64,000 bases of DNA from Deltaproteobacteria bacterium CG11_big_fil_rev_8_21_14_0_20_45_16 (GTDB lineage: Bacteria > Bdellovibrionota > UBA2394): contig PCXB01000004.1 in the NCBI GenBank assembly GCA_002787535.1, positions 1 to 64,000 of the forward strand. Direction: 5' to 3'. A program made the translations under genes and the position numbers. Shown piece by piece: positions 28,420 through 50,671 of this stretch. Numbering within the stretch: the stretch's first letter is position 1; the number at the start of each line of letters is the position of its first letter. The notes beneath the pieces were generated by a model, which worked only from the letters and a program-made list of their open reading frames with translations, did not search any database and had not been told where the DNA came from.

Positions 28420-29853
28420 ATGAATAAAACCGAACCTATAAAATCTACCGCTTCAATTTGGGAGGCCATTTGGGCTCATAGCTCGGAAGGGCTTTGTGAG
28501 CTGTCGGCAAACTCTAAAATTCTTCGTCGCAATCCGGAGTTTGAAAGCTTATTTGGCAACCTGAATGCAAATGAGATTTTTGGAAATAACCTACCGACTC
28601 TGACCGCGGCGGTTCGAAAATGCATAAAAAATAATGAATTCGCAAAATGGCGAATGAGTCTTCAAGATATCTCCCAGAATGAACGTTTTTTTGATTTTAA
28701 ATTGGTGCCGACCTCTACATCAAACGACAAAACGGCCCTTTTGATTGTTCAACCTCCGGAAATATATTCTGTAACTAAAATGAATAAGATCGGAAAACAT
28801 TCGGTCGATCTTATTTCAATGATTGTTAATCACTTGCCGGTGGTGCTATTTGCAATTGATGAGAATGGAGTGATTACGCTTTCGGAAGGGCCCGGACTAA
28901 AAATCAGGCCAAGCGAAGTAGTGGGCCATTCTGTCTATCAACGCTACAAGGATCGCCCCGATATCTTGGCAGATATCGATTGGGTGTTGCAAAACAAGCG
29001 ACCCCGTTCAAGTATTTTTAGTCTTGAAGATCGAACCTTTCATGTTCGATTTAATCCTTTTTATGAGGGGAAAAATTTTAAGGGCATGGTTGGTGTGGCC
29101 ATGGATATTACGGATCGAATTGCCGCCGAAGCCAGTCGAAACGCTATTAAGGATCGGGTTCTGAAAATGACCGCGCACGATATCCGTGGCTCACTTGCAG
29201 GGGTAATGGCGTTTCTAAAGGATATTGTTGACGGTGATATAATGGAAAATCTAAGTGCCAATCAGCGTCATATTTTTAAAATGATGCAATCCAATTGTGA
29301 ACAGGTTTATTCTTTGACCAATGAAATTGTCCAAGCTCATACTCTGGAACACCAGGAGTTCCGACTTAGCTTACGAAATGTCAAAGTGGTCGAATTCTTT
29401 CTAGATTTATTTGAAAGATCCAAAGCGATCAGTGCCGAGAAGTCAGTGCCGCTAAGAATTCGTATTGAAGAAATCCCCCATGAATACGTCTTTGATCCAG
29501 CCCTGATTGAACGTGCTGTAACTAATTTGATTCGAAACGCGGTTGAGCATAGCAGTACGGGGTCAGCTGTAGAGCTGAAGATTTCTACAGCTGATGAGCA
29601 ACTTCTTGTCTCGGTAAAGGATTATGGCGAAGGCATTGCCGAAGATCAGATCCCCTATTTGTTTGACGAGTTCAAGGCGTTTTCGGGTTCTCAAACGCGC
29701 TCCGATAGATTGAGTCGCGGCCTGGGACTCTATATCGTCCGTAGAATTGTAGATTTGCATAATGGAAATATCTGGCTTGAGTCGAAAAAGGGAGAAGGTT
29801 CGGAATTTTTCCTTAGCCTGCCCTTAGGCTCTGGCGAATATGTCGAAGAATAG
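28420..29853 (+). CDS. PAS-domain sensor histidine kinase (soluble)
   Basis: No membrane segment is visible, so this should be a cytoplasmic sensor. Residues 1-120 form a divergent PAS-like domain (LCELSANSKILRRNPEFESLF). Residues about 140-245 are a clearer PAS domain (LPVVLFAIDENGVITLSEG) ending with GMVGVAMDITDR. The H-box has H253 in MTAHDIRGSLAG. The catalytic domain is complete: N-box ERAVTNLIRNAVEHS, G1 VKDYGEGIAED, F-box YLFDEF and G2 SRGLGLYIVRRI. The length of 477 residues is normal. It is convergent with a LuxR-type response regulator 24 bp away; that regulator may be its partner. The sensed signal is unknown. Confidence 0.93.
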   Translation: MNKTEPIKSTASIWEAIWAHSSEGLCELSANSKILRRNPEFESLFGNLNANEIFGNNLPTLTAAVRKCIKNNEFAKWRMSLQDISQNERFFDFKLVPTSTSNDKTALLIVQPPEIYSVTKMNKIGKHSVDLISMIVNHLPVVLFAIDENGVITLSEGPGLKIRPSEVVGHSVYQRYKDRPDILADIDWVLQNKRPRSSIFSLEDRTFHVRFNPFYEGKNFKGMVGVAMDITDRIAAEASRNAIKDRVLKMTAHDIRGSLAGVMAFLKDIVDGDIMENLSANQRHIFKMMQSNCEQVYSLTNEIVQAHTLEHQEFRLSLRNVKVVEFFLDLFERSKAISAEKSVPLRIRIEEIPHEYVFDPALIERAVTNLIRNAVEHSSTGSAVELKISTADEQLLVSVKDYGEGIAEDQIPYLFDEFKAFSGSQTRSDRLSRGLGLYIVRRIVDLHNGNIWLESKKGEGSEFFLSLPLGSGEYVEE

Positions 29854-29877
29854 ATGGACGCGGACCATCCATTTTAT

Positions 29878-30504
29878 TTATGTGGAATAAATACAACTCA
29901 CCAACTCAGATCTACTCTTGACACCAAATTTATCGAAAATACTCGTAATATGAAACTTCACGGTCTTTTCGGTAACCTCTAAGGCCGAACCAATTTCTTT
30001 GTTCGATAATCCTTTAACCACAAGTCGGCAAACTTCTTGCTCTTTGGAAGTTAGACGATTGAGCTCCATCCACCTTTCTAACATCGAAACCAAAAACTTC
30101 GGTTCCTGCCAAACAGCTTGGATTTGATTTACTAAAGCAACTATTTCAAATGGCTTTTCGAGCAAGCCACAAGCCCCTCGATTGATCGCTTCTTTCGCAA
30201 TTTCTAAATCCGCTCGAGAGGTAATAATAAAAACTGGAATATCGATCTTCAAGCATTCATCTAATAGCTGAAGCCCCTCTTTTTCATCTTTTTGAATGTA
30301 CACATCAGTTACTACGGCGTGCACTGGCGGAAGAGTTGTCGAACCTACTCGAGATTTGGCGGAGTCATAATTATTTGTCCACTCGGCATCCATTCCCTGC
30401 CGCGACAGTCCTGAACCCAACCACTCGCCCATTACGGCGTCATCTTCAAGAATTAAGACGCGCCCGTCCGGTTTTTTAAGTGGTGAAAAAATTTTTCCCG
30501 TCAT
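29878..30504 (-). CDS. NarL/LuxR-type response regulator
   Basis: Receiver domain, residues 14-130: acidic pocket in LILEDDAV, phosphoacceptor D67 in VVTDVY, Thr/Ser position in FIITSRAD, and the conserved Lys in LLEKPF. The C-terminal LuxR-type helix-turn-helix, residues about 148-205, reads LTSKEQEVCRLVVKGLSNKEIG, then VTEKTVKFHI. All key residues are intact, so it should be a phosphorylation-controlled DNA-binding regulator. It ends 24 bp from the end of a sensor kinase gene read in the opposite direction. The short convergent gap holds only a weak hairpin. Targets are unknown; the 180 bp upstream of it separate it from the giant lipoprotein gene on the same strand. Confidence 0.94.
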   Translation of the reverse strand: MTGKIFSPLKKPDGRVLILEDDAVMGEWLGSGLSRQGMDAEWTNNYDSAKSRVGSTTLPPVHAVVTDVYIQKDEKEGLQLLDECLKIDIPVFIITSRADLEIAKEAINRGACGLLEKPFEIVALVNQIQAVWQEPKFLVSMLERWMELNRLTSKEQEVCRLVVKGLSNKEIGSALEVTEKTVKFHITSIFDKFGVKSRSELVSCIYST

Positions 30505-30685: not shown

Positions 30686-33600
30686 TTATTGGTCGATCCT
30701 AAGGCGAAATGGGGTGCCCAGGAGATTGGTCGTCGTATCAAGAATTTCGATAGTATCGTTGCGTTCGCAATCAATATAGAGATAGTCGGTGCCCCCAACA
30801 TCGATCGAAAACATTTGGCCCGGACGACAACCGTCCGTTAGCGACACCGTCGCCGCAACAACATCAGGGTTACCTGAGTTGTTAATGACCGTGATCGTGT
30901 CATCCGCATAGTTGGCAATATAAACACGATTGGCGGAATCAAGAACGTAGATGGAGCTTGGTTCATCGCCTAGGGCTAGATCCGTCTGGACTGAATTGAC
31001 TTCATCATAGATTCGAACAGCGTCGGCATAAGGGTACAAAATATAGGTTTTATCTTCGGCTTCACTAATATCGAGATCATGTGGATTTGTATTCCCAATT
31101 AGATTATTTGAGGACGAAAATGACAAAGGACCTTTGTAAATCGTACCAAGCGACTGACTAATAGCCCAAACAGTTCCCGTCCCTTCATTTACATTTACTC
31201 TTTGAAGTCCACGCTGTGTCGTATCCGTGTAAGTAGGAACGGCGGGATTTCCCGTATTACCGGCAAACTGCGTTAATTCCTGAGACACTTCACTAACAAC
31301 CGTTACTAGGTTGGTCGCTAAATCGACATCCATCGCAACCGGATGAGATCGCGTCACGGCCCTCGTAACTAGAGTGTCCGTGGTTGTATCGTAAACCATG
31401 ACGTTATCCGAGCCATTGTTCACGACAAAAAGCCTGTCAATGGCGTCATCAACCTTCATCGAGCGAGGCGCAAGATCGGTCGCGATAAGACCTAAGCCGC
31501 TAGGATCACCATTGCCATCCAAACTAACAACAGCAATGGATTCAGACGGTGCGCAAAGAACATAGAGCTTGCTTTCGCTAAGATCGATCGCAAGCTCACT
31601 CGGCGCTTGGCAAACAGAGTAAAAAACTGAACTTCCATCCGTGGCATCGATTGCCATTACTGCATTCATATATTTCAGAGCCACATAGATACGATCATTG
31701 GCATCCCAACCAACGACATCCACAGGTCGATTAAGTAGAGCATTTGAAATGGATATCTGCTGAAGATCTGGATCGATTCGTAAAAATTCTGCACGCAAGG
31801 AATCTACAAACCAAATATTTCCAGCGGAATCTGTGCTCGACTTATCTACTTCGATATCGGTAGGAACGATAAAGGATGGGATATTGGAAGCTCCGACCAA
31901 TCCAATTGGATAGAGTCGAATAAGATCTCGAGTTGCTTCAAACGTCATAAAGTAAGTGCTATCGGCAAAAAGAGCCGTAAAGGGATTCGTTTCATATTCC
32001 ACACCATTTACATAGAGCAAATCATCATTAGTATGTCCCGCAACCGTCGTCGCTGCATCGTCCGTCACGAGAAAACTTGGAGAATGATCCAAAATAGTCT
32101 GCGTCGCAGCGCCTCTCGTAATATAGTGAAGATCAAAACCATTGATAGAACTGACGACGACTCCCGTACCTCCTGAAGTCGTGCGAGCCATATCTGTAAA
32201 GGCTTGTGGAAGAGTATCAGACCGAACGGCAGCCATAGTGGCGGCAGTGTAACTACTCACCGTTGTCTGCCCACCGACAAAGACGGTACCCACGCCATCG
32301 TTTACGTAGAGTAATTTTTTCGGGCGAAATCCAATCGCCGTATGGTCGACAAAAGCCTCGGGTCCTGTCGGATCGATATCGTATCTTGAAATGGATTGTC
32401 CGTTTTCGTTGGCAATCCAAAGTAAATCCGACGCACTATTCCAATCTAAAAACACGGGGCGATCTTGGGTTGAAAGCGTAGAGACTGTAGCCCCCGTCCC
32501 GGCATTGATGATCGAAAGACTGTCAGAGTCGCGGTTCACGACATACAATCTGTCATTTGCTCCGTTATTCCGATACGAAATCTGAACCGGGTAATCGCCT
32601 ACATCATAATGACGTAGACGCCAATTGTCCGCACTCATTTCTTGGAAACTATAGGCCGTGTCTTGTTCGCTCGAAACAAAATGCAAAATGGAGGAGGATT
32701 CAGCAAATGGACTTCCAATACTTAAAGGAAGTTTGAGACGATCGCCCTCTACTTGATTCGTTAAATCCAAAGAAAGAACCTGATCTTGATCTCGACTTAC
32801 TAAATATAATTCGTCCGTGACACCAAACATTCCCATTCCAATAAATTTACCATCTAAGTTTAAATAGCTCGTCGTTAAAGACTGCCCAATATTAGTGGCT
32901 GCCTGGGGCCACTGAATGAAAAACATTTGAGAGTTGGATTGCAAAATAGATACAAACCGATTGGCCCCATCCGAGTGAACCATCATTGACTTTGGATAGT
33001 TTCCACTAGATAAATGCGCCAGGTTCGAAAAGCTATTGGCTGCATCTAAAACATCCACTCTCTTCGCGGCTGCACAATGCACATAAACATATCCAAAATG
33101 ATCCTGCTGAACCTCCGAGGGGGTCCGGCAAGTTGGAACGGTTGATGTCGTCGCGAGATCCGCCGAATAGATTCGTATATGATCATCACCATTTGTGGCG
33201 TCTCCAGTTTTTGTCAGAGCAATAGCTAGTTGCGCCGTACTCGTTTCATAGAGAACACCTCCAAAATCATTCCCAGAAAAATTAGATAAAGTCATATGCC
33301 CCTGAATCATTCCCAAATCATCGGAATTATACATGGCCAGGCGCAATCGATTGATCAATTTTGAGCCAACATAGACTCCTGCCGGCGCAACCCCAACAAC
33401 ACTCGAACGAATCCATAGTGGTTTCGTTACATCCACACTCACTTCATCTACACATAGCGAGCTGTCCATTGTATCAATATCAAAGGAATAGACTTTGTTA
33501 GCGACATCGTCGGCGACGATCAGTCGATCCAAAGCTCCTCCAGCCTCCGTTAGATGAATATCACTGATATGCTGAAAATCGCCGCAGAACTTCGGATCGA

Positions 33601-36202
33601 CTGTAATATCACCAGCTCCATCTTTGGTAGCGTAATAAATTCGAGTCCGCGCGGGATTAGTAAAAACGATTTCATCCGAAAGTTCGGTTCGAACATAAAA
33701 GAGTGAGCTTGCACCGACAAAAATTCCTTCTGGCAATCGAGTCGCAATCAAATCGCGAGTGGAAAAATCCGTTGCTGTAAACGAATAGAAACCTGAATCA
33801 CTCGCATCGGGCAGAACATAAAGTAGCCGCCCGGCTCCACCAGCTCGAATTTCGGGCGCCATAATCTTGGATGGATTACGAGGCAGTTGAGTTCCAATTG
33901 AAGTCAGCGCCGGATATTCAGCCACGGATTGATAGGGGGCACTGGTTTGTGATTGTGGATCATAGACAGTTAGGCCCGTCGTGGTCTGGGCTGAGAAATA
34001 ATATTCGATGACTTGGCCCTCAGACAAAAGAGGCAAATCAACCGTATAGACGTTGACTCCGCCATCGGTCATAACTATTTGCTGCCAGCTCCCTCCGTCG
34101 ATGCGATAGAAGAAAATACCCGTATTATCTAACGCGGCCGAAAGTCCGTTGGACACAGTTAGAGTAATGGTCACGGTGGCTCCCGGAAGAATAACTCGAG
34201 GAATCGAACTATAAGAAAAATTTAGGTAAGTTGGACAGGAGATGCCGTGCGCTTCCAGGGCATTACAAATTTCTTCTTGATTGGGAGTAGAGTCCTCGAG
34301 GTCAGCGTTATCGTCATCGATGGTCAGTAATTCAACAGCCGTTGTGGGGTGTGCTGAATTCGTACCCGCACCCCCAGCCGTCGCGACCAACCAATCAACA
34401 AAAAGCTGCTGAGTTGAACTCAAGCCCATAGTCTGCCGAAGATCCCAAAATATTCCCGCTAGTACCTGGCCACAATAATGTATGGCGCCACTGCAAGGAT
34501 ACTGCACATCTGCGGTTGCAGGATTTCGTAGATAGTCACCATCGATCCGAAGGTCATAACCTACGCCCGAAGTATCATACAGGAGCATCGCCAAACTATC
34601 TCCGACGCCTTCACCAAAGGCTCCTTGAACAAGGCCCAATTCATTAACTACATGATGGCCATATTCATGAGCAACGACGGTACTATAGGCAGAATTCCGA
34701 CAATCTGCTTTGGATCGATAAAAATTAAATTCCGTACCCGCAATATAGGCCGCATTACAAGGATCTGTTGGGACCGCGTAATCCATGTTCACACGAGAAT
34801 CGATATTATTATTGAGTGTTAGGATTCCCGCCGTTCGATCTCGGATGAAATTGTAAGCTAAGCTCCCAACATAAAACGCATTGACCTGAGATGTATCCTC
34901 TTCCGCTGGATCTGGATTGAATTCAAAATCGATGACATCGTTTACCATGCCAATTGCTTGAGTGAAGCTTAAATCATTTCCTTGATCGTCGATCACAGTG
35001 ATTCGAGGTCCATCTAGGGCAACGCCAACGTTTTGGGGAAGCCCTCCAGCATCGACTATCGCATAATCACCATTTTGATCCGTATCATCGCTATTACCTC
35101 CAGCAATCTGAACGGTAATTTCTTCTAAAGCCACGGATTCAGCTTCGTTTGACGTGGTGTCGGGCTCAATACCTGGCGTTGCGAAGCCTGTAACGTTTCC
35201 AGAGATATCCGCATCACTTTTTTCGGATTGTGTATTTATAATTTGGCCAGTCGTTGCATCAAGAAAGAATAGCTTTTGGTCGATTACGGAATTGGAGTCC
35301 CCATATTTTTTTCCACGTACTTTCCAGGTTCGGACGGATTCTGAAATTATGGGTGAAGGATGATCGATGAGGATTACCAACTCAGGCGCTTCGAACTCAA
35401 ACTCTGTTCCATACACTAGATCCGATCGGAGATTGTCTAAGATATTTTGCGATGAATAATTTATCGCTCCAAAACCTGTCGATGGAGGGTGCGCAATCTT
35501 TGAGTACATAAAGGCCACACGAGGTGAGCCGTTGATTCTTTTAAGCATCAAGCGAATCAAACTCGCTTCAACAGGACTTTGACTTAGATACTGTCGATAA
35601 GAATAAACAGTAATGCTGCCGTTTTTGATATCTTCCTTTCTTAAAAATCGAAGATCGATTTGTGACAAACCAATCACAGAACCGTTCTGAGCGATCCAAT
35701 TGGAAACAATATCATCATCACTTTGTGGAGAGTCCTCGGACAAAGTGGAACCAAAAATAATTCGCTCAGATGCACTGGGCTCCATCGTCATTGCACCCGG
35801 GTTCTGCTGCAAAATCATCTGAAGAGCTTCAGAGCCTTCTGTCTGGAACTCAAAACTTTCTAGCTCCGGAAGTGGCCGGTTTGGCTCGGGTTGTACTTCG
35901 GGTTGAGGTTCAGGCGTCGGCTCGGGTTGCAACCCGAGAATTTGTCCTACATCTTCTGGTGCCTCTTCAACTTCAATGGGCAACTCAATGGGTGCCTCCG
36001 AAAAGTTCGGCAAATTCTCAACCGCAGGCGTGTCCGAAACATTCTGAGGAATGAGAGCCGATCCTTCTGACGCAGGCGTATCCGCCGGCAGATCGGGGGA
36101 AGACTCGGACGTTTCAATTTTGGTTCCCCTCTCTTCCGGGATACAAGACGCCAAACCGACGCTGAGCATAAAAACCAAACTGAGCCTTATGGCATCTTTC
36201 AC
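30686..36202 (-). CDS. Giant lipoprotein: M36-like metallopeptidase plus beta-propeller
   Basis: 1838 residues. The signal ends in the lipobox LASC (Cys20), and an acidic/Pro-rich stalk follows (about 25-115, with PEPTPEPQPEVQPEP). Residues about 120-340 look like a fungalysin/thermolysin propeptide-type region. The catalytic zinc motif is HEYGHH at 512-517, with the third ligand expected in GEGVGD (E531), as in M36 fungalysins. A beta-sandwich (about 660-770) follows. More than 1000 residues then carry repeated YVTN/NHL-type blades such as NRDSDSLSIINAGTGATV, NNGSDNVMVYDTTTDTLV and NYADDTITVIN. It is probably outer-membrane anchored. The peptidase could mature itself or act on external proteins, and the propeller probably binds a partner. 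Fusion of these parts at this size is unusual. Confidence 0.85.
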   Translation of the reverse strand: MKDAIRLSLVFMLSVGLASCIPEERGTKIETSESSPDLPADTPASEGSALIPQNVSDTPAVENLPNFSEAPIELPIEVEEAPEDVGQILGLQPEPTPEPQPEVQPEPNRPLPELESFEFQTEGSEALQMILQQNPGAMTMEPSASERIIFGSTLSEDSPQSDDDIVSNWIAQNGSVIGLSQIDLRFLRKEDIKNGSITVYSYRQYLSQSPVEASLIRLMLKRINGSPRVAFMYSKIAHPPSTGFGAINYSSQNILDNLRSDLVYGTEFEFEAPELVILIDHPSPIISESVRTWKVRGKKYGDSNSVIDQKLFFLDATTGQIINTQSEKSDADISGNVTGFATPGIEPDTTSNEAESVALEEITVQIAGGNSDDTDQNGDYAIVDAGGLPQNVGVALDGPRITVIDDQGNDLSFTQAIGMVNDVIDFEFNPDPAEEDTSQVNAFYVGSLAYNFIRDRTAGILTLNNNIDSRVNMDYAVPTDPCNAAYIAGTEFNFYRSKADCRNSAYSTVVAHEYGHHVVNELGLVQGAFGEGVGDSLAMLLYDTSGVGYDLRIDGDYLRNPATADVQYPCSGAIHYCGQVLAGIFWDLRQTMGLSSTQQLFVDWLVATAGGAGTNSAHPTTAVELLTIDDDNADLEDSTPNQEEICNALEAHGISCPTYLNFSYSSIPRVILPGATVTITLTVSNGLSAALDNTGIFFYRIDGGSWQQIVMTDGGVNVYTVDLPLLSEGQVIEYYFSAQTTTGLTVYDPQSQTSAPYQSVAEYPALTSIGTQLPRNPSKIMAPEIRAGGAGRLLYVLPDASDSGFYSFTATDFSTRDLIATRLPEGIFVGASSLFYVRTELSDEIVFTNPARTRIYYATKDGAGDITVDPKFCGDFQHISDIHLTEAGGALDRLIVADDVANKVYSFDIDTMDSSLCVDEVSVDVTKPLWIRSSVVGVAPAGVYVGSKLINRLRLAMYNSDDLGMIQGHMTLSNFSGNDFGGVLYETSTAQLAIALTKTGDATNGDDHIRIYSADLATTSTVPTCRTPSEVQQDHFGYVYVHCAAAKRVDVLDAANSFSNLAHLSSGNYPKSMMVHSDGANRFVSILQSNSQMFFIQWPQAATNIGQSLTTSYLNLDGKFIGMGMFGVTDELYLVSRDQDQVLSLDLTNQVEGDRLKLPLSIGSPFAESSSILHFVSSEQDTAYSFQEMSADNWRLRHYDVGDYPVQISYRNNGANDRLYVVNRDSDSLSIINAGTGATVSTLSTQDRPVFLDWNSASDLLWIANENGQSISRYDIDPTGPEAFVDHTAIGFRPKKLLYVNDGVGTVFVGGQTTVSSYTAATMAAVRSDTLPQAFTDMARTTSGGTGVVVSSINGFDLHYITRGAATQTILDHSPSFLVTDDAATTVAGHTNDDLLYVNGVEYETNPFTALFADSTYFMTFEATRDLIRLYPIGLVGASNIPSFIVPTDIEVDKSSTDSAGNIWFVDSLRAEFLRIDPDLQQISISNALLNRPVDVVGWDANDRIYVALKYMNAVMAIDATDGSSVFYSVCQAPSELAIDLSESKLYVLCAPSESIAVVSLDGNGDPSGLGLIATDLAPRSMKVDDAIDRLFVVNNGSDNVMVYDTTTDTLVTRAVTRSHPVAMDVDLATNLVTVVSEVSQELTQFAGNTGNPAVPTYTDTTQRGLQRVNVNEGTGTVWAISQSLGTIYKGPLSFSSSNNLIGNTNPHDLDISEAEDKTYILYPYADAVRIYDEVNSVQTDLALGDEPSSIYVLDSANRVYIANYADDTITVINNSGNPDVVAATVSLTDGCRPGQMFSIDVGGTDYLYIDCERNDTIEILDTTTNLLGTPFRLRIDQ

Positions 36203-39428: not shown

Positions 39429-42400
39429 TTATTCCTTCCCAAAATAAGTCAGTAGCGCTCGAATCATACTCGCGCCATCCGTGCCAAGTTCGGCATATCC
39501 GATTTTCTTTGAATCTTCCTGGGATAAGGCTTTAAAGGCCTGGGATAAAACGGCCATCTCCCCGCGATACATTCCAAAAGCATCAATATGAGCGTATCCC
39601 ATATACTCGACTTGCTCAGCGAGTTTTCGGATCATCTCTACCGCCGCCTCAGTATTAAAATCATCTCCATCTGAAAAATTGAAAATATATCGATTATATT
39701 GTGACCGAGGAAAGCGCTTAAGAACTTCATCAGCTTTCTTATAACCCGAAACGGCTTCTGTTCCGCCCCCAGTGTTTTTTCTGTAATAATCCTTTTCGCT
39801 GAGTTCCTCAGCCTCCGTTCCATAGCCGATATAAACCAACTCAATATCATCGTAGACCTTGCGCAATAGCGCGGTGGTCAACTTGGCAAAAGTCTTCTCT
39901 ATCTTTCGCTTGTGCTCGTCCATGCTTCCCGACCGATCGGCTACAAACATAATAACCGCTTTCATAAAGGGCTTGGGGTGTTCTTCGCGACGATAAACAT
40001 GCAAATGCTCGGGTTTCATTCTTGAATAGCCCAACTCCAAAATATCTTGGGGATCCATTTCTTCGATGTCTTTGCCTTCCTCAATGGCCGCCGCCATACC
40101 TAGTCGAATGGCTTCTTGAGTAGTTTTGACAATATGAATTTCACCATCGCTTTTTCGAACCGAAGATTTTCTTTGATAGCGAATATCTTTGTTATTACCT
40201 TCGGTCTCTCTAATATTTTTGAGACTTAATTTTTGCAAGAGCGCTTCTAAAAATACTTCTGTGGGAATTTTGAAATCTGCGGGATTATCCTCACTTCCTT
40301 GCTCACCTCGACCTTGCCCTGCTTGAGTGCTCCCTTCTTCCTCTCCGGGCTCACCTTCCTCAGACTCCTCTCCTTGTTCCCCTTGGCCCTGGCCTTTCCC
40401 TTGAGGCTCAGGCTTCCAACTTTCGCCAGGCAAGTAAGGACCTTCACCCAACTCAAGATCTTCATCACGAAGCATTGGGAAATTCGAACTTTCTGGTTGC
40501 AAGTTCGAAGACCGCCCTAAGGCTTCTGCACCAAAGGCATCAAAAGGATTGGTCGCTAAATTTGCCCAGGAACGATCCGGCATACTCGTTGGCAATATCG
40601 AAGCACGCAAATTTCTTGCACGCTTATCCAATTGAAAGCTTGGAATGTCCGGCAAAACCTTAAGTCCAATGGACTTACCATCTGCCGAAATATTTATGGC
40701 TCGCTCTCCCTTAAGAGCTTCTTCCATAATTCGATGAAGCCGATGACTCATAAAGTTCATATACTCGATAATGGCTCGACTTGCTGAAGCGGCATGAAGG
40801 GCATGGTTTTCAGCCGAATCAACTCGGATATTATTGGCGCTCATTACTGCATCGATGTATTTTTGGAAATCCGCACGCATCGGCTCAATTACATAGCTAA
40901 GTTGAGAATTTGCGATGTATTCCTGCACACTGGAGTTTACAATTGACTTGATTTGTTCGGAGAGGGCTTGCTCGCCTTCTTCCACAATAAGTTCACCATT
41001 TGGCCGAACCGTTAGGCGTACGCGAAAGGTTTTAGCGAGATCTTCCATTCTTTCGATCGGAGGATAGGGCAGCTCTCCATAAAAACTTTCGAATTGTTTC
41101 CGCTTCACGGGGTCTTGAACAATGCTCAAGGGAACTTTTTCGTGAGCCATCCACAGACCCGAGCCAATCGTATCAAGAGTGACCGGTCTCTCTAGAATTT
41201 GCGCCAAGACATACAGTGTTGGGCCAATGGAAGCCGGATCCAAGGGAATATCAAGATAAGGATCGTGTCGGAGCAAAACTCGTCCGCTTTCGTTAAAATC
41301 AACGATTTCAATTCGAGCCTGTTTCAGATCCGGGTTGGCCACTCGATGAGCAATCAAATCTGCAATACGTTCGGGATCACGAGTGATCGCTAGGTTTTTG
41401 GGCCCTGCCTGGGGATCATCAACTTCATTTGGCTTTTGTTTTCGATAGAGCAAAAGCCCATGACGCTCAACAAATTCATGATTATAGGCCAGGCGCAACA
41501 AACTATAATCCGTTAGCCCACTCTGCATCAAATCTCTTGCGTAGTCCGCGAACTGGCGATCTTGCTCCAACACACTTAGGCTCACAATTTCCGGACGCCT
41601 TAAGAATCTTTCGTATAAAATGAACCAAGCCTGAACACCCGTAAAATATGGACTCGATAAATCCGGTCGAGCAGCGACTCCTGCATTGATATTTCCAAAC
41701 TCAATCGCATTCGCCGGGGAATTATATTTACTGTGCTTGAGAATCAGATACTCAGAAAAAGTTGCCCAACCTTCATTAATAATTCTTCCATGATAGAAAA
41801 CAGGATCAAGCCGCCGCTTTCTCTCAAAAAGTTCGAGTAGTTCCGTCTTCCACGACGCTGCAGAAGACGGGAGATTATATACCAGCGCCTGCATGACGGA
41901 TCGCGTGGGAGCTAGGGGATGCCTCTGCTGAGTTTCGACGACCCTTTGGATGGGCTTTCCGTCGGCCCGCTCACTCTCTTGAAGACGCGCGCGTTGATTC
42001 ACGACCGAATTCTCATAACGCTCAGGCAAATCAATACTGCCACGTGAAAAATCCTGTAGACTCACAAGGCTTTGAAGCCATTGATAGTAACGAGTAACCT
42101 CCTCGTAGTCTTCCGTCTCGATCAACTCGCCCATTCGGTGCGCCAGCAGCGATGAATCAAAGATTCGATCCGGAGCTCGCTGTAACTTTAGAATAAAATG
42201 CTTATTAAAATCATAATGACCCGCGACATGGGATAAAACGATCAAAGTAGCTTCATCTGAACTTGTATCATTAAGATATTGAAGGTCCCGCGTATGACCC
42301 GCTTCGATAAATTCAAGGACGCTGGTTCCCATCGATGCCGCCTGAAGAATGGAGTAGCCATCTAACCAAAATGGCGCCGGATCGCCCAAACCGCCTATCA

Positions 42401-42644
42401 GACCAACCAGGGAGTTGGGAGTTAGTGATTGAATCATCATATCGGGAACTTGATAACCAAGTTGCGGTGCAATCCTATGGTAGATCTCCTGAGAAGCATC
42501 GGCATAGAACTCCATCCGATCAGAGTCTCGCCCACTTCCGTGGATAACAATTTTTGCTAAATCATGAGAACAGCGCCCGCCATTGTGAGCGTGCAACGTG
42601 ATCGGAGCTAAACAGGAAAAGAGCAATAAGCCTAAATTTCTCAT
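39429..42644 (-). CDS. Exported SpoVR-YhbH (DUF444) fusion protein
   Basis: Signal peptide MRNLGLLLFSCLAPITLHA, then HNGGRC. The N-terminal two thirds match SpoVR/YcgB: LSHVAGHYDFNKHF near residue 136 and NEGWATFSEYLIL near 290, then a RPDLSSPYFTGVQAWFILYE-type region. An acidic Gly/Gln/Glu linker follows (about 730-770). The C-terminal 300 residues match YhbH/YeaH (DUF444): IRYQRKSSVRKSDGE, a VWA MIDAS FVADRSGSM near 899, YIGYGTEAEELSEKDYYR, then TGGGTEAVS. In other bacteria SpoVR and YhbH are separate cytoplasmic proteins encoded beside PrkA. Here they are fused and carry an export signal. The ATG overlaps the upstream gene's stop by 4 bp (ATGA). It is the last gene of a three-gene operon. 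Confidence 0.88.
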   Translation of the reverse strand: MRNLGLLLFSCLAPITLHAHNGGRCSHDLAKIVIHGSGRDSDRMEFYADASQEIYHRIAPQLGYQVPDMMIQSLTPNSLVGLIGGLGDPAPFWLDGYSILQAASMGTSVLEFIEAGHTRDLQYLNDTSSDEATLIVLSHVAGHYDFNKHFILKLQRAPDRIFDSSLLAHRMGELIETEDYEEVTRYYQWLQSLVSLQDFSRGSIDLPERYENSVVNQRARLQESERADGKPIQRVVETQQRHPLAPTRSVMQALVYNLPSSAASWKTELLELFERKRRLDPVFYHGRIINEGWATFSEYLILKHSKYNSPANAIEFGNINAGVAARPDLSSPYFTGVQAWFILYERFLRRPEIVSLSVLEQDRQFADYARDLMQSGLTDYSLLRLAYNHEFVERHGLLLYRKQKPNEVDDPQAGPKNLAITRDPERIADLIAHRVANPDLKQARIEIVDFNESGRVLLRHDPYLDIPLDPASIGPTLYVLAQILERPVTLDTIGSGLWMAHEKVPLSIVQDPVKRKQFESFYGELPYPPIERMEDLAKTFRVRLTVRPNGELIVEEGEQALSEQIKSIVNSSVQEYIANSQLSYVIEPMRADFQKYIDAVMSANNIRVDSAENHALHAASASRAIIEYMNFMSHRLHRIMEEALKGERAINISADGKSIGLKVLPDIPSFQLDKRARNLRASILPTSMPDRSWANLATNPFDAFGAEALGRSSNLQPESSNFPMLRDEDLELGEGPYLPGESWKPEPQGKGQGQGEQGEESEEGEPGEEEGSTQAGQGRGEQGSEDNPADFKIPTEVFLEALLQKLSLKNIRETEGNNKDIRYQRKSSVRKSDGEIHIVKTTQEAIRLGMAAAIEEGKDIEEMDPQDILELGYSRMKPEHLHVYRREEHPKPFMKAVIMFVADRSGSMDEHKRKIEKTFAKLTTALLRKVYDDIELVYIGYGTEAEELSEKDYYRKNTGGGTEAVSGYKKADEVLKRFPRSQYNRYIFNFSDGDDFNTEAAVEMIRKLAEQVEYMGYAHIDAFGMYRGEMAVLSQAFKALSQEDSKKIGYAELGTDGASMIRALLTYFGKE

Positions 42645-45600
42645 GGCAATAAACCCCTCAATAAGTAATCACATCGACCGCTAAACCGTTCGGCCCACTT
42701 GCTTTCGCGTTCGGCTGTCTCATTGACGAGTCGAATGCTAGAGGCCAGACCCGAAATCCAGCTCTGGTCAAATGGTTTGAGGGGTGAGGAAGAATTTTTG
42801 CTAAACAGCAAGTCATGAACAAAGCTGGACTCTCCGATGGAAAGGTCCTCGCTCGCCAATCGCAAAGATTCTGACAAAAATCCCGAAATCGCATCCCAGG
42901 GCATTTGATAGATCGCCCGATCAATGGCCATAACAAAAAATCTGATTGCCTCATACTGGCTCATTCTTAAGCCCTCTTTGGCTATCTCTCTTTGCTCATC
43001 GGTAATCTCTTCCGGACTGATCGAATCAACTCCAGATGCAGCCACCGAGAAAATTTCATCTACATAGGTCGCCAGTATTTTTCCAAAGTCAGCCACAACT
43101 TCGGATGAAGCTCTCGGCACTTCACTACCCTGTTTGAGCCAGGTTTCCACTTCAGGCAATCGATCCACATCTTGTACTCGAATCATTTTGGCCAATAACT
43201 GCTCGAAACCAGTCTGCAGGCCTCGAATGGTTTCGGCGAGCACGTGTTGCCGAGTCTTCTCTTCTGGCATCGAGCTAAAACTTCCAAACTCTTGTGCGGC
43301 CCGAACGCTTGAAACTATTCCAACCGGCAATTTTCGGGAGTTATCTCCCTGAATTCTAGCTTGGGCGATCTCCGCCCTTAAGGTTTCCATAAAAGCTTCT
43401 CGGGTCATCACATCCAAAATTCCAAAGTACTTGGAGTCAATGGTTAGTTCTTCTAGATTGGCTTTCGGATGTTCTTCGAGATGTCTAAGTATAGATTGAG
43501 CCAATGGTAGAACCGTTAGCTGGCGAACCTCAGGCCTTGAAGCAAAGCGCTCATCTTCGGATATGCTTCGAAGAACAAACTCAAAAGCTCGTCTTCTAAA
43601 ATTTTCGATAAGAAATTTCATAAAGGAAACTTGGCCTCGGTGATCGCCGACTATAGGAATCGCTTCGAATTGCCGACGCACGCTCTCACGGATCTGGCTT
43701 GCATTCCCTCCACCTGAAGCTTCGAAATGTGAACGCGAGGGTTCGCCTCGTGAGATCAGACGACGAGGGACAATCATAAAAAGATTGCCATCACCACTAG
43801 GAAGCCCCAAAAAGGCATTAGAGGCTTCTGTCAAATAATCTCGAGCATCGGCATTTGGAAATTGGCTGCTAATTTTTTCGACGCTGTCGGCGCCGACTAG
43901 AATCAGCCTTTGTTGATTCATAAAACTTGAATCCGAAGCTCCCGAGAGAGTATCCAGAAGTGCTGAGGTCTTCGAACCCACTCCAAAACTTCCAAAGTTG
44001 ATAATCGCTCCAAAGCGTGTGAGCGTCGAAGGCTCAATTTCGCCGCGTGAATCTGCCAAAGTAGCCAAGGTGATTTCAACGTCAGTAGGATGACCTTTAT
44101 CTTTAGAAAATTTTGCAATTTTTTCGGAAGAGACTGTCGGATTAATAAACAAAAGAAGAGAAATATTTCGAACAGGTCTTTCAAAATATTTTTCTCCCAC
44201 CCGGCGCTTAAAGACGGGATTGTCTTGAAACTCTCGTACAAGTCTCAAAACTTCATTGCGCACGTTTTCGGAGGCCGTATGAAAGTCATCCAAAATAATA
44301 TAACCACGAGGACCGTTTGGCAGTGACAGGAACACCAGAAGATGCTGCATAAAAGCTTGAGCATCATTAACTTCATTCATGCTGATATAGAAACCGTTGG
44401 CCTCACGGTTCTCTTGAGGTTTAACCAAAAAATCATAAAGTTTGAGCCCTAGAAAATTAATGAGACTCATGGCCGTCCGAGTTTTGCCAGTTCCGGAGTT
44501 CCCCAATATAATGGCGGACGAGGGCATATTTCGAACTTGGTGAGAAGAAAGCTGGCCCTTCAAAACATCAAGAAGTCTTTCACGCAGTTCAAGGGGGGCT
44601 GGACATCCGGCTCGCTTCCACAAAAAGGAGGCATTCTCCTGACTAATAATTTGGAGAGGATCATTGGGGGGAAGATAGCGAACATTAAGGGGCGTTGAGA
44701 AGTTGGCGGCCAAAACTCGCTCTATCATTGCACGACCAAATTCTCGCCGGTTACGAAACTCCGAATTATAGAAAAGCTCTTGCTCAAAGTCTTCCAACAG
44801 CCACAAAAAGGACTCAAACACCGATCGCTTCTCATCCAAAGCAAGTCGCTCGGCACGATTGACCATAAAGCCAAACAATAAATCAAAGGCCTGTTCATTG
44901 CTGACTCCTTCGGCGCTAGTTTTCACGCCATCCAGACTCGGCTCATAGCCTAAGCTTGCAATGTCTGGTCGCCTGAAAAGGGATTTTAGTATGTTTTTTC
45001 GAAATTCAGCGTTGGGCTCACCCAATTCGACAACCTCAAATGAGTCGGATACGGCAAGTTCCCCTTCAATACCGGCAGAGGCGACAAGCTCTTCCCACTC
45101 TGCTTTCGTGCCAACTAAAATCATCGGAACACTTGCTTGAACCTCCTGAGACTTGTACGCGTTAAGCGGAATTCGCCTACCCTCCGTCGAAAGCAAATAA
45201 AGAATATGCGGCTCAATCGCCACTTTCTCAGCAGACTCGCCTACACTACCCAAAGAGATCCCACGCTCTCTTGGCTTCAAGGCCTCTATATAAAAATCCC
45301 TTTCGCCACCGGCCTTTGGACGATCCAAAGCCATTAAATTGCGAAGATTGGCCATCAATACAGGCCGCTTATTTCGGCGAACTTCTTCTCGAACGGCTTC
45401 AAGATTTTTCATCACCGTGGCTTGATCAGCTTTATCGCCGACTATTGACAGGGAATGGGCCGCTTCTTTTGTAGTCCAAAATTCTGCGCCCAACTCAGAC
45501 TGTAATCTGAGAGCTTGGGGATAGTGGTAGGCATATTCTGCCAACTCAGGGCTTACGAGAAGCACGATATGCCTTGCGGACACGGCTGGATTGGCCAGCT

Positions 45601-48004
45601 GCTCTAGTAAGTTTCGATACTTTGGGAAGACATTGCTTTGATAAATTGTGGCAAAACGGAGCTTTTCCTGTTCGGACTTATCTTTCGAGCGAGAGTCTCG
45701 ATTTACAATTCGCCAAGAGTCTGATGACGCCGCCTCTTCTTTTTCCGCCCGTCTACCCAGTTCGTAATAGTTGCGAAACCCGTCTCGCTCAGAACCAAGG
45801 ACTTCCAAATCCTTGCCATCCTGAACACGCATCAGCACCAGCTTTTCGTCGTACTCGCCTTGATCTCCCCGTTTGGTCCAGTAAATGAATCCCTTATCGT
45901 CAAAAAGTACTCTCGACAAAACATCTTCACGATTCAAATCCGAGGTCGAAACTTGGCGTCCATCTCGACCGGCAACCTCCCAAGAATCTTGCGTCCTTCG
46001 AAGATTGATCTGAAACACAAAGGTTCCTTGGTCTCTAAAACTCGCAAAAGCATAAACAGGTCGAGAATCTCGTTTGGATTTTTCAGACCCAATATCGGAA
46101 GACGCCGGCGTCGCGATAAGTCCAAAATCCAAAAGCTGATCAGGATCAAAGCTTAGATTGTCTTTTTTAAGAATCGCGATGTCTTCCTTGCGAGCATTGT
46201 CGGTACTCGATTTGCTTACAGCTATATAAAGCTGAGAATATTTTTCCCCATCTTCTTTCGTCGGCGCCAATAAAAATAGGTTTATTTCAAGGCCATCCTG
46301 CAAACGCACGCTGTCCAAGCCCCAACTAATATCCTTTCTAACATTTGGATGATCGACGAGTCGGCCTCTCATCAAAAGAGCCTCTTGATTATCTTTCCCA
46401 TCAAAGGAATAGGGATAAATACCTGTTCTCAAATCCTTCCCTTCAGCGCTTTCGTATTCCAAATACTTAAAGCGATAACCAAGACTTCTTGTGGATTTTG
46501 GAGAAGGAAAAAAAATCCTTGTTTCTGAATCGGTAAGACTTTGAACAATATCTATATGCGGCGCCGTTAACCGATGGAGTTGGGTATATTGATCATTATC
46601 AGTAGAATCTGGAGTGACCGCATCAAAAGCCAACTTGCCTCCGTACACGCCTACTCTTCTTTGAAGCTCTTTCGCATTAAAGAACCTACCGGCTATCTCT
46701 TGTTGAGAAACCAAGCGAAGTGGCCCCTCTTCAATACGATAAGCCGAGGTTTTTTGGTCGGCATCTGTTTTCCACGAAACCAACAGAAGCTTAGAATCTG
46801 AAAGGTAGCGCCACTTAATATCTTTAATTTCCCCTTGAAATCCAAAGCTTGGCCGAAGGCGTAAACTCTGAAATCCATTTGCATTAGAAATAAAGTAAAT
46901 TTCTCCTGATTCCAAATAAACCATGGCGTGCCGACTATCTCGACTATTCTCCACCTTAGGTTCGTTTTTGGAGTCCAATAATGGTCGTCCGCGAAATGCG
47001 GGCTTAAGACTCGTCCAGTTATATGTTGAAACCACGGTCTCAGCCAGAAAGTAAGCTCCCTCTCCGTTTCGAGGATCAAAGCAAAGCTTGAACTCTTGGC
47101 CCGCTATTCGCACCATCTTAAATGGCAGCTCACCAATCTCGGGAGTTCCGGAAATAATATCCAATACGGGAAGCCAAGAAATAGGCGTTCGCAATCTTAC
47201 GGTCTCAACAGTCGGAGAATCACGAAGCATTCCTCGCCACTGCTTCAAGCTAGGATTATCGAAGACTTGAGGCTCTTCAAAGGATCGAAGGAGATTGAGC
47301 GAAATCGCAGAAGGCCGTGGCGCCTTGGTAACAATCATCGATTCAAGATCAGATTTGGGATGAAAATTCCAATCCAAAAGAATCGGATCTTGTAACAGAT
47401 TAATCTGAGTTCCTATCTGATTTCGGGGATCCAAGGCCAGAACGAAGCTAATACCCTCGCCGTGCACAGATTGAAACTTGGTTGAGACAATAATTAATTG
47501 AAGAGGGCCATCAGGACCATCGACCAATCTCTGAATGGCACGTATATCGTCCAAGTTTTCAATTTTGGGAAGCTTAAAGCGAGCCTTACTCACTGGATCT
47601 TTAATCTTGATAAGGTCGCTGCCAATTTCCGCAAAGCTACCCACGCTATCCTGAGCCGATTCAATTGAAAAAATTCCGAGACGGCCATCAACAACGCTCA
47701 ATATCTCATAGCGGTCGGTAAATTTTGTGATCTCAAGCTGAAGCTGTACGCCTCCCACTCGAGGCGTCGGAAAAAAATTTCCATCAAATACTTTCTTCCA
47801 TTTACCGTCGGCTCGAACGTAAAGGCCTGATGATTCGCGCCGTGAACTCCCCTGAGGATCGTCATAAACAATAAGAAAAGGCGAACCCCCTCCAAAAGCG
47901 CTAGTAATCACTTCTTCCGCACGTTGCGCGATGAGATCAGGAGTCATAAGCCCCCAGACTATCGCCGCGCCAAAGGTGAAAAGTTTCAGCGATACTTGCT
48001 TCAT
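42641..48004 (-). CDS. Exported propeller-AAA+ (Clp-like) protein
   Basis: 1787 residues. The signal peptide MKQVSLKLFTFGAAIVWGLM continues to a likely cleavage before QRAEE (DLIA-Q). Residues about 30-790 are beta-rich with repeated strand-turn patterns suggestive of one or more propellers. Residues about 800-1080 resemble a Clp/Hsp100 D1 domain without Walker A (FEVVELGEPNAEFRKNILKSL matches the ClpB pattern F..V.V.EPS.E). Residues about 1140-1400 are a complete D2-type AAA+ module: Walker A GNSGTGKT at 1168-1175, Walker B YIILDDF at 1235-1241, and sensor-1-like LLLFINPT. A helical C-terminus of about 350 residues follows. Both gene ends overlap neighbours by 4 bp. An ATPase behind a signal peptide is highly unusual, since ATP is not available in the periplasm. 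Confidence 0.8.
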   Translation of the reverse strand: MKQVSLKLFTFGAAIVWGLMTPDLIAQRAEEVITSAFGGGSPFLIVYDDPQGSSRRESSGLYVRADGKWKKVFDGNFFPTPRVGGVQLQLEITKFTDRYEILSVVDGRLGIFSIESAQDSVGSFAEIGSDLIKIKDPVSKARFKLPKIENLDDIRAIQRLVDGPDGPLQLIIVSTKFQSVHGEGISFVLALDPRNQIGTQINLLQDPILLDWNFHPKSDLESMIVTKAPRPSAISLNLLRSFEEPQVFDNPSLKQWRGMLRDSPTVETVRLRTPISWLPVLDIISGTPEIGELPFKMVRIAGQEFKLCFDPRNGEGAYFLAETVVSTYNWTSLKPAFRGRPLLDSKNEPKVENSRDSRHAMVYLESGEIYFISNANGFQSLRLRPSFGFQGEIKDIKWRYLSDSKLLLVSWKTDADQKTSAYRIEEGPLRLVSQQEIAGRFFNAKELQRRVGVYGGKLAFDAVTPDSTDNDQYTQLHRLTAPHIDIVQSLTDSETRIFFPSPKSTRSLGYRFKYLEYESAEGKDLRTGIYPYSFDGKDNQEALLMRGRLVDHPNVRKDISWGLDSVRLQDGLEINLFLLAPTKEDGEKYSQLYIAVSKSSTDNARKEDIAILKKDNLSFDPDQLLDFGLIATPASSDIGSEKSKRDSRPVYAFASFRDQGTFVFQINLRRTQDSWEVAGRDGRQVSTSDLNREDVLSRVLFDDKGFIYWTKRGDQGEYDEKLVLMRVQDGKDLEVLGSERDGFRNYYELGRRAEKEEAASSDSWRIVNRDSRSKDKSEQEKLRFATIYQSNVFPKYRNLLEQLANPAVSARHIVLLVSPELAEYAYHYPQALRLQSELGAEFWTTKEAAHSLSIVGDKADQATVMKNLEAVREEVRRNKRPVLMANLRNLMALDRPKAGGERDFYIEALKPRERGISLGSVGESAEKVAIEPHILYLLSTEGRRIPLNAYKSQEVQASVPMILVGTKAEWEELVASAGIEGELAVSDSFEVVELGEPNAEFRKNILKSLFRRPDIASLGYEPSLDGVKTSAEGVSNEQAFDLLFGFMVNRAERLALDEKRSVFESFLWLLEDFEQELFYNSEFRNRREFGRAMIERVLAANFSTPLNVRYLPPNDPLQIISQENASFLWKRAGCPAPLELRERLLDVLKGQLSSHQVRNMPSSAIILGNSGTGKTRTAMSLINFLGLKLYDFLVKPQENREANGFYISMNEVNDAQAFMQHLLVFLSLPNGPRGYIILDDFHTASENVRNEVLRLVREFQDNPVFKRRVGEKYFERPVRNISLLLFINPTVSSEKIAKFSKDKGHPTDVEITLATLADSRGEIEPSTLTRFGAIINFGSFGVGSKTSALLDTLSGASDSSFMNQQRLILVGADSVEKISSQFPNADARDYLTEASNAFLGLPSGDGNLFMIVPRRLISRGEPSRSHFEASGGGNASQIRESVRRQFEAIPIVGDHRGQVSFMKFLIENFRRRAFEFVLRSISEDERFASRPEVRQLTVLPLAQSILRHLEEHPKANLEELTIDSKYFGILDVMTREAFMETLRAEIAQARIQGDNSRKLPVGIVSSVRAAQEFGSFSSMPEEKTRQHVLAETIRGLQTGFEQLLAKMIRVQDVDRLPEVETWLKQGSEVPRASSEVVADFGKILATYVDEIFSVAASGVDSISPEEITDEQREIAKEGLRMSQYEAIRFFVMAIDRAIYQMPWDAISGFLSESLRLASEDLSIGESSFVHDLLFSKNSSSPLKPFDQSWISGLASSIRLVNETAERESKWAERFSGRCDYLLRGLLP

Positions 48005-50490
48005 CGTCGCTGTACCGACCGCACCTCTTGGATCAACCGTCGAACCGACTCGGGGGAATAGCCCAAGTTTTGTTCTAATGATCGCACGACATCATCCGCA
48101 CGTTGCCGCACTTGATCGGTCACTTGGCCTTCTTGACCGGCGACAACCGATAAGAGCGTATCCATATTCATGCGATTCGCTTCGAGTACGGCGTCTGCTT
48201 GATATAAGCGAATAGCTTCCATCAATCCCTTGTGCTTTTGCTGGGCACCTGCACGCCCACCAGACTGCGTAGCCGAAAATTGTACGAGCCACTTTCCGAT
48301 CTCCGGCACCTCGAAGCGGACTCGATTAACTCGAGCAAAAGCTTCACCTATCTTCTTCAAGCGCTCTCTATCGATCATCTGCTGATGAGAGTCAAAATAG
48401 GATTGAGCGTCCGGATCCACATGAAGAGCGGCGATTTCTTGAATCACTTCAGAATAAATCCGATCTACGACATCTGAATTGCCGCCAGCCACAGCAAACT
48501 GAAGATCTCGATTCATCGCCGGAAGCGTAAATTCGGACCAAACAAGTTGGGCATATTGGGCCACCAAAACAGCGGCTTCGGCCTGATCTTTAAACAACTC
48601 ACCCTCTCGAATTTTTTCGATCAGTACGTCTCGGATAAGCATGGGTGTAATCACGCCGCCGCGATCAGCTTTTTGCGCGTGATAGGCCGCCTCGCTCCAA
48701 ACTGAAACCGCTTCCCGATGCGATAGGCCGAAGGTTCCTTCGTCACTGGCTTCACTGATTTCAGCCAACTCCACAAGATTAGTTCTTGAGACTTCAGCCG
48801 TTCCCGTCAAAGCGCGCAGTCGCGAAACGGGATCGCGAAAAAGATTGCTGTTCGTTTTAACCATCGGAAACGCATCGGCAAAACGAACCTTGCTACGCTT
48901 AAAGTTGCTACGACTAAGGGACGCCAACATAGAGAGGAATTCCAAAGTATGAGGCATCACTTGAATGGCTTGCGCACCCTCCCCCAGTTGCAAAGCGTAA
49001 CGACCCGCCGGACTAAGAATAGGACTTCGTGGATCTTGATTCGGAGGGAATAGTTCATCGAGTCGATTCTCTTCTTCGGCGCGAGGATCTACTGGAATAA
49101 AACCAGCGTTGGATTCTCCAAGACGACGCATATAGAGGTCGGGCATTTCCATCGCCAAGGTTTTCCCAATCGTGCTGGGTCGTATGCTGAGATTCATCTG
49201 AACCTCATCCAAGCGATCCAATAGTGGGGGGCGCTGCTCCTTAGCTCGAATTTTTCGAACATCTTCAGTGTTCGTCGCGGTCAACCATGTGATATCCGCT
49301 TCAATTGTTGGCACCCCGTTTGCAGATATTGTTCCCGACTGAAAGGCTTCTAAGAGTGTGCGCAACAAAGCATCTGGATTCTTCAAAACTTCATCTAATA
49401 CCGCCAAACTTCCGTTAGCCTTTGGAAGCCGTGATAAGTTCCAAGCCATAGGATGGTCGGCACCATAGGTCGCACCAACTAAGGCGTGTTCCGAGGCAAA
49501 AAGTGCGCGTTCATTAATTTCATCGCCTTGCGCAGTAATAAAAGGAGTGTTTTCTTCGGTCCCCAAAATCCGTCTGACAATTCGAACATGCTTATTTAAG
49601 GCTTCGACAACCTCCATATTCGATAGAGGCCCTTTTTTAAGCTCAGCGTAATGTTGAATAATTTCTCGGCGAATAAAGTCAGTCTTGAAGTCTCGATTAC
49701 GCTTAGGTAGGGGCTTCCGACCAATTCTTTCTTGAACGAGATCGGTGGTCATCGCTATGAGTCGATTTTGAAAGCTTTTAGGCAAAAGCACAAAAGGCGA
49801 ATCTGCCATCGGCGCAGGATAGCCCACGGTTGTCCCCGGCTCGCGTGCGGCTTTTGGTACAAAAGGCGCCGATCGAATAGAGGGAATTTGATCTAAACCT
49901 ATGAACTCAAAAGTATAAGCATAGTACTGTGGAAACTTAAGCGTTGCCGTATAAAGACTGTTACGTAGAATTTTTAAAAAGAGAGATTTACCAGTCCCCG
50001 GGTCGCCCGCCAAAAGCACAACATTTCTGCCGCTCTGACTGCCGCTGGCTTGTGCTTCAAAACTTTGGATCACCCTTTCGACAGCGCTGTATTGTTCGTT
50101 CAAGCGCAATCCACCTGCCAAAGGATGCCCACTAGATATTAGATTGTAGATTCGCCTAAGCCCCATTCGCCCCGTGGGATCAGGAACCTCTTCATAACCC
50201 GCGTCGCGGATGATGGAGTACACCCGCTGAGGGCTCCGCATGACGATAAAGGGATGCTTGAGGGCCAAGTTTTCAGCGTCGGGTCGAATCAAATCGATTA
50301 ACTGATGTCTTTCGGCCAGCGCCTTTTCCATATCGTCACTACTATTTAAGGCGGATTCAATATCTGTTTCCTCACCGGCTGCACCAGCTAGAAAGGCCCG
50401 ACAAAGACCCTCGATTTCACCTTGAGCCCATAGCGAACTGCCCCCCATTAAAAATAATGCCACTATAGGTAGCGCAAATAATTTCCCCAC
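48001..50490 (-). CDS. Exported PrkA-like AAA+ protein
   Basis: Start at the GTG at 50490, because CAGGAGGGGGAACGATA precedes it and it opens directly into a signal peptide (KLFALPIVALFLMGGSSLWA, then QGE). An in-frame ATG at 50565 also has GGAGGGG and would add 25 residues. Residues about 60-500 resemble the PrkA/YeaG AAA+ region: Walker A GDPGTGKS at 162-169, a FVLLPKS-type segment, and GSLAVLDEVLKNPDALLRTL, which parallels the PrkA EFVEMFKAP...LHPLL segment and includes the Walker B position. PLLDRLDEVQMNLSIRPST follows. The last 300 residues are helical and do not clearly match the PrkA kinase part, so kinase activity is uncertain. It is first in an operon with a Clp-like protein and a SpoVR-YhbH fusion. 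Confidence 0.83.
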   Translation of the reverse strand: MGKLFALPIVALFLMGGSSLWAQGEIEGLCRAFLAGAAGEETDIESALNSSDDMEKALAERHQLIDLIRPDAENLALKHPFIVMRSPQRVYSIIRDAGYEEVPDPTGRMGLRRIYNLISSGHPLAGGLRLNEQYSAVERVIQSFEAQASGSQSGRNVVLLAGDPGTGKSLFLKILRNSLYTATLKFPQYYAYTFEFIGLDQIPSIRSAPFVPKAAREPGTTVGYPAPMADSPFVLLPKSFQNRLIAMTTDLVQERIGRKPLPKRNRDFKTDFIRREIIQHYAELKKGPLSNMEVVEALNKHVRIVRRILGTEENTPFITAQGDEINERALFASEHALVGATYGADHPMAWNLSRLPKANGSLAVLDEVLKNPDALLRTLLEAFQSGTISANGVPTIEADITWLTATNTEDVRKIRAKEQRPPLLDRLDEVQMNLSIRPSTIGKTLAMEMPDLYMRRLGESNAGFIPVDPRAEEENRLDELFPPNQDPRSPILSPAGRYALQLGEGAQAIQVMPHTLEFLSMLASLSRSNFKRSKVRFADAFPMVKTNSNLFRDPVSRLRALTGTAEVSRTNLVELAEISEASDEGTFGLSHREAVSVWSEAAYHAQKADRGGVITPMLIRDVLIEKIREGELFKDQAEAAVLVAQYAQLVWSEFTLPAMNRDLQFAVAGGNSDVVDRIYSEVIQEIAALHVDPDAQSYFDSHQQMIDRERLKKIGEAFARVNRVRFEVPEIGKWLVQFSATQSGGRAGAQQKHKGLMEAIRLYQADAVLEANRMNMDTLLSVVAGQEGQVTDQVRQRADDVVRSLEQNLGYSPESVRRLIQEVRSVQRR

Positions 50491-50671
50491 TATCGTTCCC
50501 CCTCCTGAAGTTGCTCGAAGATACAAATGAAATTGAAATGCAAAATTACTTTGAAAAATCCCCATCGTCCCCTCCATCACGTAACAGAAGGATAAGTTAG
50601 AGAAATTCGACTTCAAGCGTCAACGTCTAGTTGCATTGCGCCAAAAATTTGCGTCATAAACATTTGAATCG

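Follow-up and report, generated by a model that had tools for sequence, protein, structure and literature searches.

A predicted lipid-anchored zymogen of the M4/M36 metallopeptidase group fused to a multi-propeller region in an uncultivated Bdellovibrionota family

Among described zinc endopeptidases, the fungalysins (M36; Aspergillus-type Mep, PDB 7z6t, 7qfy, 4k90; 7qp3) carry a prodomain ahead of a catalytic domain marked by HEYxH...GEGxxD and a downstream HxxG, and thermolysin (M4) joins an FTP/PepSY-type prodomain to an HExxH gluzincin domain. In enzymes of both families, activation removes the N-terminal prodomain. Known propellers of the YVTN/YncE/lactonase type, such as the surface layer protein 1l0q and YncE (3vgz), are single and are built from repeats that fold into blades.

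The gene analysed here lies in a 64-kb stretch of DNA (hereafter the window, taken at its full length) and encodes a protein with features of all three. It has the motifs and the domain order of fungalysins, but falls below the PF02128 cut-off, is predicted to be lipidated and continues into an Ig-like domain and propellers. It shares the gluzincin domain type with thermolysin and has a putative, degenerate prodomain of the same kind, whereas its third zinc ligand stands in GEGxxD and that of M4 in NExxxD, and by nearly equal scores M4 appears slightly less similar to it than M36. Its C-terminal part has the repeat sequence and blades of the YVTN/YncE/lactonase-type single propellers, yet its blades are some three times as numerous, and they are joined to a protease. 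FibA of Myxococcus, a bacterium that is both social and predatory, is reported as an extracellular metalloprotease (PMC3236237); it is likened to this protein by description only, as an exported metalloprotease of a bacterium with such a lifestyle.

Layout of the fused gene

The initial annotation had reported a giant reading frame with a lipobox, a Pro/Glu stalk, a peptidase and propeller repeats, and its coordinates, strand and length of 1838 residues were confirmed; upstream of the GTG start the frame is open and holds no further start codon. The domain order is lipobox signal, Pro/Glu-rich stalk, prodomain, zinc peptidase, Ig-like domain and propeller, with the following features.

30686..36202, minus strand: complete fused gene with a GTG start, encoding 1838 aa; genus G004 has a homologue over the full length (1845 aa)
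36143..36202, minus strand: signal peptide with lipobox LASC and predicted lipidated Cys20, read from the sequence
35861..36142, minus strand: stalk of low complexity, with 19 Pro and 17 Glu in residues 21-114
35204..35860, minus strand: degenerate FTP/PepSY-type prodomain region, residues ~115-333, from profile alignment to M36/M4 zymogens
34199..35203, minus strand: peptidase region, residues ~334-668, from homology; boundary at 440 and Cys pairing assigned by eye
34652..34669, minus strand: HEYGHH zinc-binding and catalytic motif, residues 512-517, aligned with fungalysin HEYTH
34598..34615, minus strand: GEGVGD, residues 530-535, with third zinc ligand Glu531 and Asp535, aligned with fungalysin GEGWGD
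34466..34483, minus strand: IHYCGQ, residues 574-579, in which His575 is aligned to the conserved M36 His (HxxG)
33908..34195, minus strand: Ig-like domain with a CBM_56 match (PF22184 when scored alone), residues ~670-765
30689..33895, minus strand: multi-propeller region, residues 770-1838, from repeat models and AlphaFold2; ~22-23 blades, roughly three propellers

The homologue in G004 has the same layout as the window protein and all 15 cysteines of the two fused proteins stand at matching positions, which argues that the architecture did not arise by chance. Identity between the two is 42% in the catalytic region, 47% in the Ig-like domain, 22% in the prodomain and 27-29% in the propeller. 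The genomes of this family are draft assemblies of 20-280 contigs, in which a misassembly or a wrong gene call might have joined two genes; however, the independent G004 assembly also has the fusion, as an uninterrupted frame of 1845 codons beside the same neighbouring gene, which refutes such an artefact and leaves it vanishingly improbable. The gene is a real, unusual domain fusion whose component parts are ordinary, and our literature search, limited to open-access papers, found no description of an M36-propeller fusion. No Rfam family was found in the 64-kb window.

The lipobox and stalk stood up to inspection, with LASC ending at Cys20 and an abundance of Pro and Glu between residues 21 and 114. 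In both fused copies the lipobox Cys, judged by eye together with the signal, is followed by a residue other than Asp, as expected of outer-membrane lipoproteins: Ile at position +2 in the window protein and Phe after Cys23 of the LLTGC lipobox in G004 (LTGC-F). Pfam gave no FTP or PepSY match in the window copy, and the scores for the G004 copy (FTP, 0.0053) and for the peptidase paralogue C68 of the window genome (PepSY, 0.19) were both below cut-off; the hhalign alignment to M36 and M4 zymogens begins within the prodomain region. The predicted lipid anchor is N-terminal to the prodomain, an order that had been overlooked.

Also missed earlier was the predicted Ig-like domain between protease and propeller. 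Scored on the domain alone, PF22184 reached 27.3 bits (4.1e-6) in the window protein and 27.7 bits (3.2e-6) in the G004 copy against a cut-off of 27, and on the whole protein it gave 20 bits, below that cut-off. CBM56 is a beta-1,3-glucan-binding module; a marginal score of this kind to an Ig-like model offers a lead, not a specificity.

The more than 1000 residues of YVTN-like blades proposed for the C-terminal part were borne out by repeat models above cut-off and by ~1070 residues that AlphaFold2 models as all-beta. Lactonase PF10282 matched at 1.5e-12 (47.8 bits, cut-off 21.7) and the TIGR02276 YVTN repeat at 37 bits (cut-off 27.85), PQQ_ABC_repeats reached 1.9e-19 at a score below its curated cut-off, and the 1l0q surface layer propeller of the PDB matched at 6.2e-21. 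The model of residues 766-1838 has 91 strands (pLDDT 74, pTM 0.55), and at ~47 residues per four strands these would amount to 22-23 four-stranded blades, which most simply form three propellers. Because of the pTM of 0.55 and the low TM scores in Foldseek, how many propellers there are and where each ends can be given only approximately. Foldseek returned generic multi-propeller proteins (LRP2, DDB1) at TM 0.13-0.30, and we claim no specific structural relative. The eight propeller cysteines, in four apparent pairs, all have matches in the stand-alone homologue of genus G001.

Family identity of the peptidase

By eye, the peptidase region consists of an N-terminal beta-sandwich insert (~334-440) followed by the zinc metallopeptidase domain, with apparent Cys pairs at 482/501, 570/577 and 646/656. 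The fungalysin-like arrangement of HEYGHH and GEGVGD noted at the outset was upheld by alignment to fungalysin structures, and the zinc ligands are intact in both fused copies. In the G004 protein (locus L002), the motif IYTCG places Tyr where the window copy and fungalysins have the conserved His575, so its peptidase activity may be reduced. With an alignment of two sequences, AlphaFold2 modelled residues 115-768 at a pLDDT of 35; the fold and active-site geometry proposed here are predictions from sequence.

Direct assignment to M36 or M4 by Pfam or NCBIfam was rejected, with no match above cut-off. The whole protein gave no match to Pfam M36 (PF02128), which found nothing above cut-off in the window genome and reached at best an E of 0.084, below cut-off, in one of six family members; Pfam M4 (PF01447) on the whole protein scored 14.6 bits (E 0.046), below its gathering threshold of 22.4. 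A PDB search with the single protein also returned no match. A family profile from an alignment of six members (the window protein, the G004 copy and four relatives, some partial) had its best PDB matches in fungalysin chains (4.9e-5 to 0.0024), which it covered at the zinc site and in the region that follows it, and thermolysin chains were absent from that match list. Profile-profile comparison by hhalign with M36-like proteins of the phylum, found with PF02128, gave 98.5%, 1.4e-15 and a score of 130 over 434 columns including the prodomain, and with M4 proteins of the phylum 98.2%, 5.8e-14 and 118 over 432 columns; column-shuffled controls lay at 0.12-0.76, and M4 compared with M36 itself gave 1e-12. 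As these scores are nearly equal, a divergent M4/M36-group label is safer than M36, and we describe the peptidase as a probable third, divergent branch of these gluzincins, perhaps marginally nearer M36. The M36-like character first assigned to it therefore stands for the active site, the prodomain layout and the fungalysin matches in the PDB, but not as a family membership, with no direct Pfam M36 match and M4 nearly as close.

Relatives of the peptidase occur in 61 of 369 Bdellovibrionota genomes at 1e-5, and among the matches listed only the two fused proteins have open frames longer than 900 aa. Stand-alone members of the same, uncurated subfamily, at 28-40% identity, are the paralogue C68 of the window genome (539 aa), a protein in genome G030 and WKL33747.1 of Sinorhizobium meliloti; they share the catalytic motifs and several cysteines with the fused protein but lack the propeller. 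The S. meliloti protein (pSymA, L109 2146-4503) has 785 aa, is annotated as hypothetical and is 29% identical over 370 residues. Viral contigs yielded one weak peptidase match (27%). Another paralogue in the window genome (contig C10, L014, 73-1048) is split in two frames near the contig start and could be a pseudogene or an assembly error.

Distribution and history of the propeller

In a search of 97 genomes (its own and relatives), the propeller region proper matched four genomes besides the window genome, all of one GTDB family, and a scan of the genome collection with a single peptide pattern retrieved the same four. Within the range of these searches, the propeller thus appears restricted to five genera that belong to a single uncultivated Bdellovibrionota family; the collection scan used one pattern, and relatives at a greater distance may exist. 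A further weak match, in G047, was generic. In the window genome (G000) the propeller is present as a single copy.

The fusion occurs in two sister genera, G000 and G004, and the propeller is separate in G001, G002 and G003. The G001 and G003 propellers have an N-terminal signal-like sequence of their own and no protease, the G003 copy being cut by a contig end; in G002, ambiguous bases interrupt the propeller sequence. The RpoB tree pairs G000 with G004 (94/95) and G001 with G002 (100/97), G003 having no RpoB match, and both fused genes divergently adjoin an acyl-CoA dehydrogenase gene, the two being 73% identical. This pairing and this shared neighbour fit a single fusion or split event, for which one fusion in the common ancestor of G000 and G004 is our preferred and simplest history; a single split on the side of the other clade is the less preferred alternative. 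No propeller outgroup was found in the genomes searched, and the direction of the event is provisional. The close peptidase subfamily is found in G000 and G004, and only distant members in G001-G003, which would fit an origin of the fusion in a peptidase already resident there. Branches in the propeller tree are long, and the peptidase tree has too little resolution to place the two fused copies as sisters or otherwise.

In G001 (contig C4, L025 8959-14932) and G002 (contig C97, L027 3757-9414), the propeller gene is followed by a response-regulator/DUF4388/DnaJ/TPR gene, 30-60 bases downstream on the same strand, and then by a gene whose product has a type IV pilin-like N-terminus. The regulator gene, with an adjoining pilin-like frame, is present in all five family genomes, and the gene upstream of it in G000 and G004 is a different one, not a propeller; the link between propeller and pilus is therefore suggestive only. 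The regulator gene was also considered as the missing peptidase of G001 and G002 and rejected, its product being the response-regulator/DUF4388/DnaJ/TPR protein common to all five genomes.

Elsewhere in the window, a histidine kinase gene (plus strand) is convergent with a NarL-type response regulator gene (minus strand) at 28420-30504, just downstream of the fused gene. BLAST gave no match to this response regulator in those stretches of G004 that were compared, and no link is claimed. Three large abutting genes at 39429-50616 (minus strand) encode a PrkA-like AAA protein of 871 aa, a protein of 1787 aa with only weak AAA matches and a protein of 1071 aa that combines SpoVR and DUF444/YhbH in one chain; the trio resembles a PrkA-SpoVR-YhbH stress module in which two of the partners are fused.

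Proposed working and alternatives

The reading that we favor, and consider probable, is that the protein is the outer-membrane-anchored zymogen of a divergent M4/M36-group zinc endopeptidase, fused once, through an Ig-like domain, to some three propellers that sister lineages secrete alone, and that activation releases the enzyme. Export by Sec and lipidation at Cys20 are predicted from sequence. Disulfides would then form in an oxidising compartment, a location suggested by the conservation of the evenly spaced cysteines (15/15 between the fused copies, 8/8 between the propeller and its G001 homologue). By profile homology, the FTP/PepSY-type prodomain would fold the enzyme and keep it inactive. 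Cleavage between prodomain and peptidase would activate it. Since that boundary lies C-terminal to anchor and stalk, the cut would also free the peptidase, along with its Ig-like domain and propellers, provided that the severed prodomain does not remain attached. These non-catalytic parts may hold the enzyme on a polymer, a protein or a cell surface, where protein would be cut. The higher identity of the catalytic and Ig-like domains (42-47%) relative to the propeller would be consistent with a maintained enzyme joined to a faster-changing binding part.

The initial annotation had proposed a lipid-anchored surface protease; its lipoprotein signal is supported, but permanent anchoring is doubtful, as canonical processing would cut the enzyme off its anchor. 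The recognition platform and the contact with other cells that it suggested are hypothetical. A permanently tethered surface protease, with the putative recognition platform formed by the propellers, needs an exception to normal processing, in which the prodomain is not removed or stays bound. The occurrence of lipobox and stalk in both fused copies would be consistent with this, and in a degenerate prodomain the usual processing could have been lost; the prodomain can nevertheless be aligned over its length with M36/M4 zymogens, and Ile after the lipobox Cys, by the E. coli rule, speaks only against inner-membrane retention and not for surface display, so that we hold lasting tethering to be unlikely. 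The protein might instead stay on the inner face of the outer membrane as a periplasmic lipoprotein of quality control or envelope remodelling, its propellers binding envelope partners and its enzyme trimming envelope proteins. Lipoproteins of many Gram-negatives face the periplasm by default, and YncE-type propellers, which the C-terminal region resembles, include periplasmic proteins; however, exposed proteins are the more usual setting for a huge, fast-diverging propeller and a stalk rich in Pro and Glu, and although this is not decisive, a periplasmic role seems quite unlikely to us.

If the peptidase were vestigial or inactive, the function would lie in the propeller, as it would in the homologues that stand alone in three sister genera, and the Tyr in place of His575 in G004 would agree with this; as both fused copies keep their zinc ligands and the catalytic region is more conserved than the propeller, we regard a binding protein of this kind as very improbable. 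Release on activation, which we prefer, could further be combined with the pilus context: a secreted propeller linked to a type IV pilus, captured in a sister lineage by a lipoprotein protease zymogen, would have become part of a tethered and then released enzyme directed at the same cell-surface ligand as the pilus-linked propeller, a scenario that we offer as speculative and improbable.

The family provides a natural experiment, in which one clade has the propeller alone and the sister clade has it joined to a protease zymogen. The fusion of two genes points to a common task, so propellers that stand alone may likewise act beside a protease. The position of the predicted anchor ahead of the prodomain gives a simple, testable idea, that activation would equal release. 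The finding adds an unusual architecture, and no new principle, to a poorly known family of Bdellovibrionota.
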